41,868 nt of DNA. Origin: Clostridia bacterium (GTDB taxonomy: Bacteria; Bacillota; Clostridia; Oscillospirales; Acutalibacteraceae). The translations under genes and the position numbers were made by a program. The DNA is taken from assembly GCA_017380575.1 (NCBI GenBank), contig JAFODS010000003.1, positions 1 through 41,868 of the forward strand, given 5' to 3'. This document shows, one piece after another, positions 2,435 to 36,094 of this stretch (positions are counted from its first letter, which is position 1; each line of letters begins with the position of its first letter). A model generated the notes under the pieces. That model did no database searches, was not told where the DNA came from, and saw nothing but the letters and a program-made list of their open reading frames with translations.

Positions 2435-4342
2435 ATGAAGCGTATAAATTGGAAGGATATGTTCACAAAACAGGTGTTAATGGTGCTCTACGATATCGTA
2501 GCTGTAAACCTGTCATATTTTCTTGCACAGTTATCTTTATCCACAGTTATTGGGGATAGTAACATCGATTTCTGGATGAAGGTATTTGCAGAAAGAGCGT
2601 TACCTGTAACTATTGTATTCTTTATGCTTCTTAATGCCTTCAGAGTTTATGCAAGTATGTGGGAGTATGCCGGCATACGGGAGCTTTCAAATATTTGTGC
2701 ATCCGTTTTCATTGGCGGTCTTTCCAGCGTGGCGATTGATATTGCGATGTCATCATTCGGTTTTTCAATATCAAAAGTGCCGAATGGCTGCTTTAATATG
2801 TATGTTTACGTTTTCGGAACTATTCTTGCCATAATTTTTGTTGGCGGTATGCGTCTTATGTATAGGCTTATAAGACGTCAGATGCGTATGAGGAGCATGC
2901 ACAGACAGAAGAAAGTTGACAAGGTTATGATCGTCGGCGCAGGTGATATGGGTATGATTATCATCAGCGAACTCGGAGCAAGTAATTATTCAAACGGTAA
3001 GCCTGTTGTTGCTGTTGACGACAATCCTGCCAAAATAGGAAAAAGACTCCGCGGCGTGCCGGTTAAGGGTAACTGCAATGAAATTCCGCAGCTTGCAGAA
3101 AAATATAATATTGACACGATTATTGTTTGTATTCCGACAGCCGGAACAGAGCGTCAGACAGAAATTGTTAAAATTGCGGTTTCAACAGGATGCAAAATCA
3201 AAACTGCACCGAGCATTCTTGAAATGGAAGAAGGTGTAAGTAAAAATAAAATTCGTGATGTAAATATTTCAGACCTTCTTGCCCGCCCTGAGGTTAAGCT
3301 TGATCCTCATGTCTGCAATTATATTACAGGACAGACTGTACTTGTAACGGGCGGTGGCGGTTCAATCGGAAGTGAGCTCTGTCGCCAGATTTCAAAGTAC
3401 AAGCCGGAAAAGATTGTTGTTTTCGATATTTATGAAAACAATGCATATATGCTTAAAAATCAGCTCGATTCGCACAATCAGGGTAAACCTGAAGTGCATA
3501 TCAGAATCGGTTCAATTCGTGATGAAGTAAGACTTCGTGAGGTTTTTGAAGAATTCAAACCGACTGTTGTTTTCCACGCTGCAGCACATAAGCACGTGCC
3601 TTTGATGGAGGACAGCCCGAAAGAAGCAGTAAAGAATAATATTTTCGGAACATATAACGTGGCGAAAACAGCAATTGACTTTAACGTAAAACGTTTTGTA
3701 AGCATTTCTACCGACAAGGCTGTTAATCCCGCCAATGTTATGGGTGCAACCAAGCGAGTTACGGAAATGGTTATCCAGTATTTCCAAAGAAAATGCGGCG
3801 GAAGTACATTGTTTGCGGCTGTACGATTCGGCAATGTTCTTGGTTCAAGCGGAAGTGTTATTCCGATTTTTGCGGAACAGATCAAGGCGGGCGGTCCCGT
3901 AACTGTTACACACCCTGATATAACAAGATACTTTATGACAATTCCGGAAGCATCTCAGCTTGTTGCACAGGCTGGAGGCCTTGCACACGGCGGTGAAATT
4001 TTTGTTCTTGATATGGGTGAGCCTGTTAAGATTCTTTCGCTTGCAGAAAATCTTATAAGACTTTCAGGTTATAAGCCGTATTCTGAAATTGCAATTGAAT
4101 TTTCAGGTTTACGTCCGGGTGAAAAGCTTTATGAAGAGCTTGCACTTGAGGAAGAATCAAATGAACGCAGAATGACTGCGAATAATAAAATTTTTGTCAC
4201 AAAGCCACTTGAAATGGATGACGAATTGTTTGAACAAAAGCTTGAAGAACTCAGGGTTGCAAAAGAAGGAGATATCAGAAGACTTCTCAAGGAAGTTGTC
4301 CCGAATTATGTTGAACAGAAGGATTACGATCACGCTCAATAA
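2435..4342 (+). CDS. Membrane nucleotide-sugar 4,6-dehydratase (CapD/PglF/WbpM type)
   Basis: The 635-residue enzyme has four N-terminal membrane segments (about residues 12-150), a first Rossmann-like domain (VGAGDMG near 166) and the short-chain dehydrogenase domain with TGGGGSIG near 305-312. The catalytic set looks like the S/T-M-K form of this family: S425-T426-D427-K428 followed by M436-x3-K440. The family converts UDP-GlcNAc to a 4-keto-6-deoxy sugar, the first step towards bacillosamine, FucNAc or QuiNAc type sugars. The ATG at 2435 is preferred over one at 2411 because GGAGGG lies 6-7 bp upstream of it. It is the first gene of the operon and fits with the PglC-like and PglA-like genes downstream. 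The exact sugar made is unknown. Confidence 0.93.
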   Translation: MKRINWKDMFTKQVLMVLYDIVAVNLSYFLAQLSLSTVIGDSNIDFWMKVFAERALPVTIVFFMLLNAFRVYASMWEYAGIRELSNICASVFIGGLSSVAIDIAMSSFGFSISKVPNGCFNMYVYVFGTILAIIFVGGMRLMYRLIRRQMRMRSMHRQKKVDKVMIVGAGDMGMIIISELGASNYSNGKPVVAVDDNPAKIGKRLRGVPVKGNCNEIPQLAEKYNIDTIIVCIPTAGTERQTEIVKIAVSTGCKIKTAPSILEMEEGVSKNKIRDVNISDLLARPEVKLDPHVCNYITGQTVLVTGGGGSIGSELCRQISKYKPEKIVVFDIYENNAYMLKNQLDSHNQGKPEVHIRIGSIRDEVRLREVFEEFKPTVVFHAAAHKHVPLMEDSPKEAVKNNIFGTYNVAKTAIDFNVKRFVSISTDKAVNPANVMGATKRVTEMVIQYFQRKCGGSTLFAAVRFGNVLGSSGSVIPIFAEQIKAGGPVTVTHPDITRYFMTIPEASQLVAQAGGLAHGGEIFVLDMGEPVKILSLAENLIRLSGYKPYSEIAIEFSGLRPGEKLYEELALEEESNERRMTANNKIFVTKPLEMDDELFEQKLEELRVAKEGDIRRLLKEVVPNYVEQKDYDHAQ

Positions 4343-4348
4343 TTGTTG

Positions 4349-4620
4349 GGGTGACGGTAGTAATCCGAACCTGCCCGAAAGCAAGTCTTTTCAGTGCTTT
4401 TCGGCGTTTCGGATTTGAAAGGCGTCAGCCTGTCGGCATCCTCAATATCCAAAAATCATCTGAAAATCCTCTGCTTTCGGGTCGAAGATTTTTTATCGAG
4501 AGGATTTTTGGCAATTCAAGGCAAAAACACAGCCAATCCTTGCGGATTGGCGAGTATTTTAACGAAGAAGTGGCGGAAATCATCCGATAAAAAACACGGT
4601 TTGGATTATTATCGTCACCC
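4349..4620. other. 272-bp structured intergenic element with terminal inverted repeats
   Basis: Ends 4349-4371 and 4598-4620 are 23-bp inverted repeats matching at 20 of 23 positions. Inside are three further perfect inverted repeats: cccgaaagca (4374-4383) with 4472-4481, aaaatcctct (4463-4472) with agaggatttt (4499-4508), and gccaatcc (4532-4539) with ggattggc (4544-4551) around a TTGC loop. The second overlaps the first by one base, so they may be alternative folds. No supported gene lies in it and no obvious target duplication flanks it. It fills the gap between the dehydratase stop and the ribosome site of the sugar transferase. It may be a MITE-like insertion or a transcribed structured RNA of the operon; the sequence alone does not decide. 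Confidence 0.7.
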
Positions 4621-4635
4621 TAAAGAGGGATTAGT

Positions 4636-5259
4636 ATGTATAAATACATCAAAAGGGGAATGGATTTTGCGGTGGCGTTTGTCGCACTTTTGTTTTTTTC
4701 TCCGTTGATGCTGATTGTTTCAATACTAATTAAAATCAACCGTGACGGCCCCGTGCTTTTCAAGCAGAAAAGACCGGGACTTAACGGAAAAATTTTTACT
4801 GTCTATAAATTCCGAACGATGTCAGTAAAAACTCACGATCCGAACGGCAGGGAGCTTTCGGATTTTGAAAGAATGTCAAAAATAGGAAGTTTGCTGCGCA
4901 AGACAAGTGTTGACGAGATACCTCAGTTTATAAACATTCTCAAAGGCGATATGAGCTTTATCGGACCGCGTCCGCTTCTTACAGAGTATCTTGAGCTTTA
5001 TACACCGGAACAGATGAGACGTCACGAAGTAAGACCGGGTATTTCAGGCTGGGCTCAGGTAAACGGCAGAAATACTATCACTTGGGAAGAAAAGTTCAGA
5101 TATGATGTGGAATACGTCGACAAGATGAGCCTTAAAATGGATATATATATACTTATTAAAACGGTTCTTAATGTACTTAAACAGGACGGCATAAACAGCG
5201 GTGAAGCAAATACTATGGAAAAATTCCGCGGTACTGAAAAAGAGGAAGTGAAGGAATGA
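4636..5259 (+). CDS. Undecaprenyl-phosphate sugar phosphotransferase, PglC-like
   Basis: The 207-residue protein is a small monotopic phosphoglycosyl transferase: one re-entrant membrane helix at about residues 10-32, then the bacterial sugar transferase core with KFRTM, the Asp-Glu dyad at D93-E94 (SVDEIPQ), GPRPLL and RPGISGWAQVNGRN. The dyad falls at the same residue numbers as in Campylobacter PglC (established knowledge of that family). It would move a sugar-1-phosphate from UDP-sugar onto undecaprenyl phosphate and so start repeat-unit synthesis on the inner face of the membrane. An AGAGGGA ribosome site precedes the ATG. The stop overlaps the next start by ATGA, so the two are translationally coupled. 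Confidence 0.93.
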   Translation: MYKYIKRGMDFAVAFVALLFFSPLMLIVSILIKINRDGPVLFKQKRPGLNGKIFTVYKFRTMSVKTHDPNGRELSDFERMSKIGSLLRKTSVDEIPQFINILKGDMSFIGPRPLLTEYLELYTPEQMRRHEVRPGISGWAQVNGRNTITWEEKFRYDVEYVDKMSLKMDIYILIKTVLNVLKQDGINSGEANTMEKFRGTEKEEVKE

Positions 5260-34837: not shown

Positions 34838-34959
34838 CTTGATTAGCTCCTTTTATTTACTCGGCATATGTGTGCCTATTACATTCTATGTTCAAAAATC
34901 CCACACGCCACAGTAAAATTCGGGGTTTGTCGGGTCTTTGAATTTTGCAGAATCCGATA

Positions 34960-35084
34960 CCTCCATCTGATGAGGGAGGTGGATTTTGCGAAGCAAAAGA
35001 CGGAGGGAGAGATATTACAAATCTTGACTACCCCTCAGTCTTGCCTACGGCAAGCCAGCTCCCCTGACAAGTGGAGCTACGCCC
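34960..35084 (+). repeat. Palindromic interspersed element, copy 1
   Basis: Left module ctccatctgatgagggagg...ttgcgaagcaa...gagggaga; right module in reverse sense, cccctcagtc-ttgcctacggcaa-gccagctcccctgacaagtggag (split here for reading). Each module holds a small stem, and the two modules can pair with each other. No open frame. Confidence 0.75.
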
Positions 35085-35319
35085 TTTTTTAGCTTAAAAA
35101 AAGAAGAACTCCACAACCCCGAATTTGTTGGTTTGGTGAGGGTGGGAGGAGGGGCGGTTTTGCCAAATTTTGTTAAAATAAAGGTGAATTGTGGTGTTGT
35201 GGTGGGCTATAAAAACTGCGGTTATGTATAAATATATAGAAAAGGTTTTGGGAAAAGCTATAAATTTGAAAGAAATACTGAAAATTATTTAAAAAATCAA
35301 AAATTAACAACAAAAGCTC

Positions 35320-35664: not shown

Positions 35665-35727
35665 TCGGCTTGATTTGTCGGACGCGCAATGCACACCCCC
35701 ATGAACCCGGTTCAATCAACGGTGTAG

Positions 35728-35749
35728 GGGACGACGTCCTCGACGTCCC
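35728..35749. repeat. Small palindrome with double GACGTC
   Basis: gggacg/cgtccc arms around acgtcctcga; followed at 35774-35788 by gaagata-a-tatcttc. Confidence 0.7.
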
Positions 35750-35819
35750 GTTAAAAATGCACAAGATTAACGGGAAGATAATATCTTCTCCTACGGACAC
35801 GCCTGAATCTGTTTAGTGG

Positions 35820-35841
35820 GGCACGACGTTTACGACGTGCC
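35820..35841. repeat. Imperfect 10-bp hairpin
   Basis: ggcacgacgt-tt-acgacgtgcc, with one mismatch. A related hairpin, ggtgtg-tcgcaag-cacacc, follows near 35862-35880. Confidence 0.75.
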
Positions 35842-35956
35842 GATATCCTTCAGAATTAACGGTGTGTCGCAAGCACACCCTACAAAAGGATTTAAAAAAC
35901 AGGTGAATCCGGGTTTGTTGAGATGTTTGGCTTGCGTTTTTGATTGAATTGTGCGA

Positions 35957-36094
35957 ACCTCCACTTGTCAGGGGAGGTGGGTTTTGCGAAAGCAAAACTC
36001 GGAGGGGTAGTTTGGTAGGGTGTAATAACAAAACCGGTTTTCTCTCCCTCAGTCTCGCTGACGCTCGAAGCTCCCTCATCAGAGGGCGCTACGC
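35957..36094 (-). repeat. Palindromic interspersed element, copy 2 (opposite orientation)
   Basis: Left side ctccacttgtcaggggagg...ttgcgaaagcaa...ggaggggtag corresponds to the reverse complement of the right module of copy 1. Its right side (ctctccctcagtc...ctccctcatcagaggg) corresponds to the reverse complement of copy 1's left module. Both copies end in gctacgc on the plus strand. Confidence 0.75.

Follow-up and report, generated by a model that had tools for sequence, protein, structure and literature searches.

A palindromic, very probably mobile element of the MITE type between two genes of a Clostridia polysaccharide operon

The element and the genes around it

The window analysed here is the whole stretch of 41,868 nucleotides from a Clostridia bacterium. 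It holds a polysaccharide operon in which a gene resembling those for nucleotide-sugar dehydratases (Pfam Polysacc_synt_2) is followed by one for a PglC-like sugar transferase (Bac_transf) and then by glycosyltransferase, EpsG, pyruvyl-transferase and CpsB/CapC genes. Between the first two lies a 272-base imperfect, near-complete palindrome (4349-4620), and since the stop codon of the dehydratase gene ends at 4342 and the transferase gene starts at 4636, this element occupies the whole gap, as a first-pass annotation of the letters had said. Read directly, the left end at 4349-4371 (GGGTGACGGTAGTAATCCGAACC) is identical to the reverse complement of 4598-4620 (GGGTGACGATAATAATCCAAACC) at 20 of 23 positions, which is the match given in that annotation; its coordinates proved exact except for two bases per end that correspond to TA. 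With these TA positions, the left one of which reads TG in the window copy, the element extends from 4347 to 4622. The lists of open reading frames for the window contain one 104-codon frame starting at 4394 and continuing into the next gene. The features are as follows:

4340..4342, + strand: TAA stop of the upstream dehydratase gene, 4 nt ahead of the element (gene calls)
4347..4622, + strand: whole element with its terminal TA positions (37 aligned copies; genomes G003 and G005 are 274 bp shorter)
4349..4371, + strand: left terminal inverted repeat, with a variable tip and the conserved CCGAACC (read directly and in aligned copies)
4373..4482, + strand: left arm of the fold, helices 2-6 of alignment A1, approximate ends (covarying helices)
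4484..4597, + strand: right arm, conserved core CAAGGCA-AAAAC.CAG / CGAGTATTTTAACG, basis of covariance model R1 (covariation, R1)
4532..4551, + strand: apical hairpin GCCAATCC-TTGC-GGATTGGC, with strong covariation (fold and alignments)
4598..4620, + strand: right terminal inverted repeat (read directly and in aligned copies)
4621..4622, no strand: right-end TA (aligned copies; empty-site alignments)
4636..5259, + strand: PglC-like sugar transferase gene, start 13 nt past the element (gene calls, Pfam)

Dispersed copies and empty sites

A BLAST search with the window copy returned seven near-full copies and one fragment from its own genome, where more diverged copies also exist (e.g., C46:22185-22451), together with dispersed matches in relatives, 18 of 60 genomes in all (own included), among them 9 of the 18 genus genomes. 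Among named genomes, 36 stretches carry the exact tip pattern, and 35 of these stretches come from ruminant Clostridia MAGs; the lone match in an unrelated bacterium, Herminiimonas contaminans (L117 1866-1887), is possibly due to chance. Searches of phages and plasmids returned no match to the element, and none of the viral contigs carried the exact tip pattern, so the idea that it is phage or plasmid cargo was rejected. A literature search of titles and the beginnings of abstracts, with subscription papers and preprints outside its scope, returned no description of the element.

The ends of the 37 unique copies of the window's family (family 1) mostly read TA/GGG..CCC/TA, with some decayed, and beyond the TA we could see by eye no fixed sequence in them except frequent Shine-Dalgarno-like right flanks. 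Other family-1 copies stand before quite different genes: the start codon lies within 30 nt for 20 copies (a list that includes the window copy), and the ten such downstream genes that we typed belong to ten different families, including MinD-like, TatD, aldose epimerase, formate-THF ligase and ABC transporter proteins.

Both flanks of the window's site were found together in 12 of 17 congeners (the remaining five had one flank, no flank, or flanks on separate contigs), and the element is absent from all 12. Relative to the window, 269-293 bp are missing in these genomes, with several of the alignments ending away from the junction. The cleanest empty sites are those of G003 and G005, in which the operon is 274 bp shorter, that is, 272 plus a TA; neither genome has a TA at the insertion point now, which counts against our best explanation. 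Overall, empty sites were seen at four loci, and at two of them (L006 and L116) insertion took place in the TA of the TAA that ends the upstream gene, turning this stop into TAG; the same probably happened at a third (L054). One gap at a minD-like gene is filled by a different subfamily in each of two genomes (L206, L218). Beside the minD copy lies a 40-bp repeat (L007 1448-1487) that recurs in G009, in G008 and elsewhere in the window's genome.

The element is thus short, dispersed and present in several copies per genome, and it has terminal inverted repeats with a target-site duplication, to which a TA carried at one end without duplication is formally equivalent. Dispersed copies, TA flanks and empty sites support the option of a MITE, which the first-pass annotation had offered beside that of an operon RNA. 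That this is a mobile element is very likely, and we hold with high confidence that it is a copy of a non-autonomous palindromic one (MITE-type, ERIC-like) of about 276 bp, which was inserted behind the dehydratase stop and now lies inside the operon.

Several further observations concern repeats of this kind. Many contigs of RGIG3036 (JAFSDF) among L096-L127 end about 270 nt or less from the end of a copy, which suggests that copies are numerous and that the assembly breaks off at the palindrome. The window's genome contains a second family with TACTTTAATTGCC-type ends and the same core, and several of its contigs (C19, C27, C59, C60, C5, C54) start or stop inside or beside a palindrome of that family. 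A full copy at L067 (G013:C68) contains, at about 2278-2546, a second element with TTAGGGTATAGGAAG ends; since R1 also matches this nested element (2412-2525), one superfamily member has been inserted in another. In G014 there are solo palindromes of 22-24 bp, TA-GGGTTACGATAGTAATCC-TA, that resemble a lone element end (L087 2042-2063, L089 at about 1994-2018, L090 at about 1821-1845). Finally, the window holds another dispersed, palindromic-looking repeat with the motif AAATTCGGGTTTGT (34907-35128 and 35679-36012); it has further copies in 442 kb of the same genome and gave no R1 match in the window.

A conserved core with variable tips

The covariance model of the right arm, R1, gave matches in 58 of the order's 245 genomes, counting the window's own, and these represent 35 of 127 genera and 16 bacterial families, while in a sample of the phylum only 3 of 299 genomes were hit, namely the window's own and two of the same order. 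We examined 75 matches from 117 listed, many of which were reverse-strand shadows or repeats of one place, and the ends could be fixed for 44 of the 75: most of these elements are 276-280 bp long with TA ends, and their tips are quite different. The other 31 lacked a TA-ended inverted repeat under our rule (at most 5 mismatches in 20) and were set aside. We compared 19 representatives, which cover 8 of the 16 bacterial families: identity is 0.35-0.39 in the outer tips and 0.62 in the right arm, although within each element the tips are 0.93 complementary. Column entropy in alignment A3, which comprises copies with divergent ends, shows the same pattern: the outer tips stand at about 1.3 bits, the subterminal CCGAAC (columns 19-25) at 0.46, and the core flanks at 0.4-0.7. 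In some relatives (L285, L344, L351, L352), back-to-back inverted copies of the core are present, which suggests an ancestral inverted dimer.

Conservation in an ordinary MITE is concentrated in the ends, whereas here the outer tips are the least conserved. Our leading guess is that a trans-acting enzyme reads the fold, the core or the subterminal part and needs only paired, TA-anchored tips, so that movement would depend on the folded core and the subterminal sequence and not on the outer tips; that the core drives mobility is suggested by its conservation. The alternative is an ordinary MITE that goes back to a transposon of the IS630 or a similar type, whose transposase reads the terminal repeats and perhaps the subterminal CCGAAC; the tips would then differ between families because each family follows its own transposase, and the core would reflect only shared ancestry. 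We regard this as a serious possibility, somewhat short of an even chance. It fits the TA target and the TA/GGG..CCC/TA ends, and the inner part of the terminal repeat equals the core in conservation; CCGAAC could be a transposase binding site. Moreover, in the parts of the literature drawn on here, IS630-Spn1 has been proposed for RUP, and CCC-type IS630 ends resemble those of MITEPlu5, a relative of ERIC (PMC2229807, PMC6267812, PMC3049150). The outer tips, which vary most, speak against it.

The search for an enzyme bears on the same alternative. A match to DDE_3, the IS630-type domain, is present in 29 of 300 genomes of the bacterial family (30 loci), which speaks for an ordinary MITE, but DDE_3 is absent in 8 of 8 genus genomes that carry copies, and the 30 loci gave, in a simple count, 24 tip-like matches at up to 4 mismatches in 18, none with fewer than 3. 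A REPIN-like partner of the Y1 type was rejected, as it showed no correlation with the element: Y1_Tnp occurs in 12 of 22 genomes, but in none of the copy-rich G013, G482, G398, G370 and G458, while it is present in G005, G007 and G015, which have no BLAST match to the element, and the 12 Y1 loci show no similarity to it. Thus, within the DDE_3 and Y1 families, we found no mobilising enzyme or autonomous partner with shared ends. As far as the cited part of a 2007 review goes, the partners of MITEs other than RUP had not been found or not been looked for (PMC2229807).

Operon junctions, orientation and stop codons

Copies of the element favour operon junctions and do so in one orientation. Taking the element's strand as the reference, the flanking genes of the 37 copies are ++ in 25 cases, -- in 5, -+ in 5, +- in 1 and ?+ in 1, so that 25 of 30 co-directional cases share one orientation (P = 1.6e-4). 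One copy, L207, which has the same site as L097, was dropped before the remaining tests; its neighbours are -+, and the orientation count is unaffected. The right end lies within 30 nt of a following start codon in 19 of 36 copies, and the left end in 0 of 36. Co-directional gaps of up to 60 nt hold 15 of the 36 copies, against 319 of 3474 TA sites (P = 2e-7), and an upstream stop codon is formed at the left end in 8 of the 36, against 277 of the 3474 (P = 0.007); the background was drawn from 442 kb of the window's genome and counts TA sites that are non-coding or part of a stop codon, while the copies come from several genomes. Our gene caller was home-made, crude and trained on that one genome, and the gene contexts of R1 matches were not used for this reason. 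Gene calls on virtual empty sites with one TA, in which 9 of 37 sites were called intragenic (at least some of them insertions at stop codons, e.g., L206), were discarded because stops disappeared where a different base followed the retained TA; they were replaced by calls on each side of the filled site and by a test that needs no gene caller.

This caller-free test comprised 77 copies of all families, three R1 matches with doubtful ends having been dropped beforehand. A Shine-Dalgarno sequence with a start codon within 34 nt was found at the right end of 34 of 77 copies and at the left end of 5 of 77 (P = 1e-6). A weaker difference was seen for stops, with the stop of a 100-codon frame within 12 nt at 29 of 77 left ends and 14 of 77 right ends (P = 0.016). 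At 25 ends (19 left, 6 right), belonging to 21 of the 77 copies, the stop consists exactly of TA plus the element's first base, although away from the few sites with an empty relative, the insertion may instead have truncated a longer gene. Directly after the TA, 63 of the 77 copies have G and 12 have A, which means that insertion into the TA of a stop codon almost always yields a stop again.

We consider it possible, if somewhat doubtful, that this bias arises from the insertion mechanism itself, for instance from lagging-strand or single-stranded targets co-oriented with genes, and not from selection after insertion. Genes in such bacteria mostly follow the direction of replication, and the orientation of the copies is strongly one-way, with 25 of 30 co-directional cases alike; several copies are nevertheless reversed or lie in divergent gaps (five --, five -+ and one +-). 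A terminator acting in the reverse orientation was not a convincing cause: in 4300-4700 there are 5 terminator-like sites against 0.5 in shuffles, three of them inside the element, but the hairpins occur on both strands and have short T runs. No outward promoter was found in 4300-4700.

A fold that covaries

The strong folding claimed in the first-pass annotation was borne out, as positions 4343-4636 have a folding energy of -123 kcal/mol, whereas 200 dinucleotide shuffles gave -75.3 +/- 5.2 (z -9.1), and none of the 200 folded as well. Its nested inverted repeats are real as helices of the consensus fold, for example GCCAATCC/GGATTGGC at 4532-4551, but a repeat search with a 12-base minimum gave only one pair, 83% complementary. 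In the 37 family-1 copies, 95.4% of cells pair and 43 of 77 pairs show double changes, with 0 of 500 shuffles reaching any of five measures; when the alignment is slid by one base, pairing falls to 52-54%. Alignment A3, with 23 copies (it omits five of 28 listed representatives, one shorter and four most divergent), gave 92.8% of cells paired and double changes in 57 of 80 pairs, and again 0 of 500 shuffles were as high. Alignment A2 omits 4 of the 37 copies, which are truncated. When changes are traced on a minimum spanning tree, pairing is retained in 73 of 87 double changes, with 27 doubles expected under independence, although the single changes run counter to covariation: 146 of them disrupt or restore a pair, and 85 leave pairing as it was. 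By the criterion of the first-pass annotation, a plain MITE would be recognised by scattered hits that have target duplications but lack covariation; the hits are indeed scattered and TA-flanked, but covariation is strong.

Covariation of this kind might also be mutational, with template switching in quasi-palindromes or conversion between copies keeping the arms complementary in the absence of selection on the fold. The near-complete palindrome would lend itself to such a process, and at two shared insertion sites there are three compensated doubles in place (one further pair is broken, and two are mismatched in one copy), which could come from template switching or inter-copy conversion. Moreover, G-U and A-C are balanced in the outer pairs of family 1 (39 and 38) and nearly so in A3 by pair columns (32 vs 27). 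Nevertheless, internal helices outside the terminal repeat covary equally, with up to four Watson-Crick types, and among the non-constitutive pairs of A3, counted by cells on the + strand, G-U exceeds A-C (78 vs 39), an RNA-like excess in pairs chosen by RNAalifold, which favours G-U. We thus view the mutational account as unlikely.

Role in the operon and a possible way of life

A dedicated cis-acting RNA of the polysaccharide operon, acting by EAR-like antitermination or by control of read-through, is highly improbable: the position in a long polysaccharide operon, the strong fold and the excess of terminator-like sites, through which some read-through effect is possible, speak for it, but the element is absent from all 12 orthologous operons with both flanks, other copies precede ten unrelated gene families, and it has no Rfam match at the gathering threshold. 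The empty operons refute an ancestral operon element, an operon-specific RNA was rejected on these and on the ten downstream families, and the EAR analogue of the first-pass annotation, which had itself seen no EAR sequence match, is not supported; for EAR/epsC RNA there was no Rfam family match at the gathering threshold and no conservation in the orthologous operon (0 of 12). At the gathering threshold, Rfam matched only a glycine riboswitch in the window, outside the element (RF00504, 32011-32103, 66.8 bits), and at a relaxed threshold it added only a snoRNA at E 2.7, which is chance level.

The element is found in many related gut bacteria and is no dedicated switch of the polysaccharide operon, in which it most likely does nothing dedicated and is a tolerated passenger in the mRNA. 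We infer that it is co-transcribed with the operon. When a stop-codon TA is the target, the first base, G or A, would restore TAG or TAA, and the right-hand TA would leave the Shine-Dalgarno sequence intact, and thus the operon could tolerate the insert. Disturbance of translation by the insert would be prevented by its tight fold, which RNase III may cut; by analogy with other elements, the fold may invite RNase III or shift the balance of the two genes.

Beyond the window, we tentatively propose, as a rather doubtful idea in this full form, that these elements make up an order-wide non-autonomous superfamily whose mobility is set by a conserved folded core and by paired, TA-anchored ends with free outer sequence. 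The enzyme would possibly read structure on single-stranded DNA or RNA, and the elements would be adapted to stop codons in operons, in the sense orientation.

Comparison with known systems

EAR/epsC RNA lies inside a polysaccharide operon, as the element does in the window, but the element is mobile, not bound to one operon, and without an Rfam match. REPIN/RAYT systems consist of an inverted pair of structured units, and the relatives with inverted dimers of the core are similar in this respect, but the element has a TA target and no link to a Y1 transposase. In Correia/NEMIS elements, the terminal inverted repeat is the conserved part; these are found in Neisseria and measure about 107 or 155 bp, unlike our element. 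BOX differs in being modular.

Correia/NEMIS elements share TA termini and terminal inverted repeats with our element and are a proposed substrate of RNase III (PMC2229807). Cutting by RNase III, with an altered balance of two genes, has been reported for NEMIS, and for ERIC by another cut (PMC2229807). BOX and RUP of pneumococcus are likewise small interspersed repeats, and RUP has a TA target and IS630-like terminal repeats. RUP is 107 bp long, and the passages of the literature cited here mention no order-wide covarying core for either. BOX encodes the stop codon of the upstream gene in 36 of 58 overlapping genes, so the supply of a stop is already known for MITEs (PMC3049150).

The closest likeness is to ERIC (MITEEc1/MITEPlu5), compared here by description only: an imperfect palindrome with TA termini and target duplication, a strong fold and an intergenic position (PMC2229807, PMC6267812). 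ERIC lies in transcribed intergenic regions and has orientation-dependent effects (PMC2229807, PMC6267812). TA insertion, a palindromic fold and a position between genes are all found in our element as well, but it measures 276 bp against 123-127, occurs in Clostridia, and has two covarying arms with a conserved core and tips that differ by family. In the cited part of the 2007 review, the mode of ERIC-type movement was still open (PMC2229807), and a 2018 paper pointed to IS630-type ends for one ERIC-type element (PMC6267812). The superfamily comprises numerous copies and clean empty sites, a covariance model is available for it, and its core is better conserved than the outer tips, so whether an enzyme reads the fold or only the ends can now be asked directly. 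The element also shows a way of life inside operons, in which the insert itself restores, at some sites, the stop codon that its insertion has broken.
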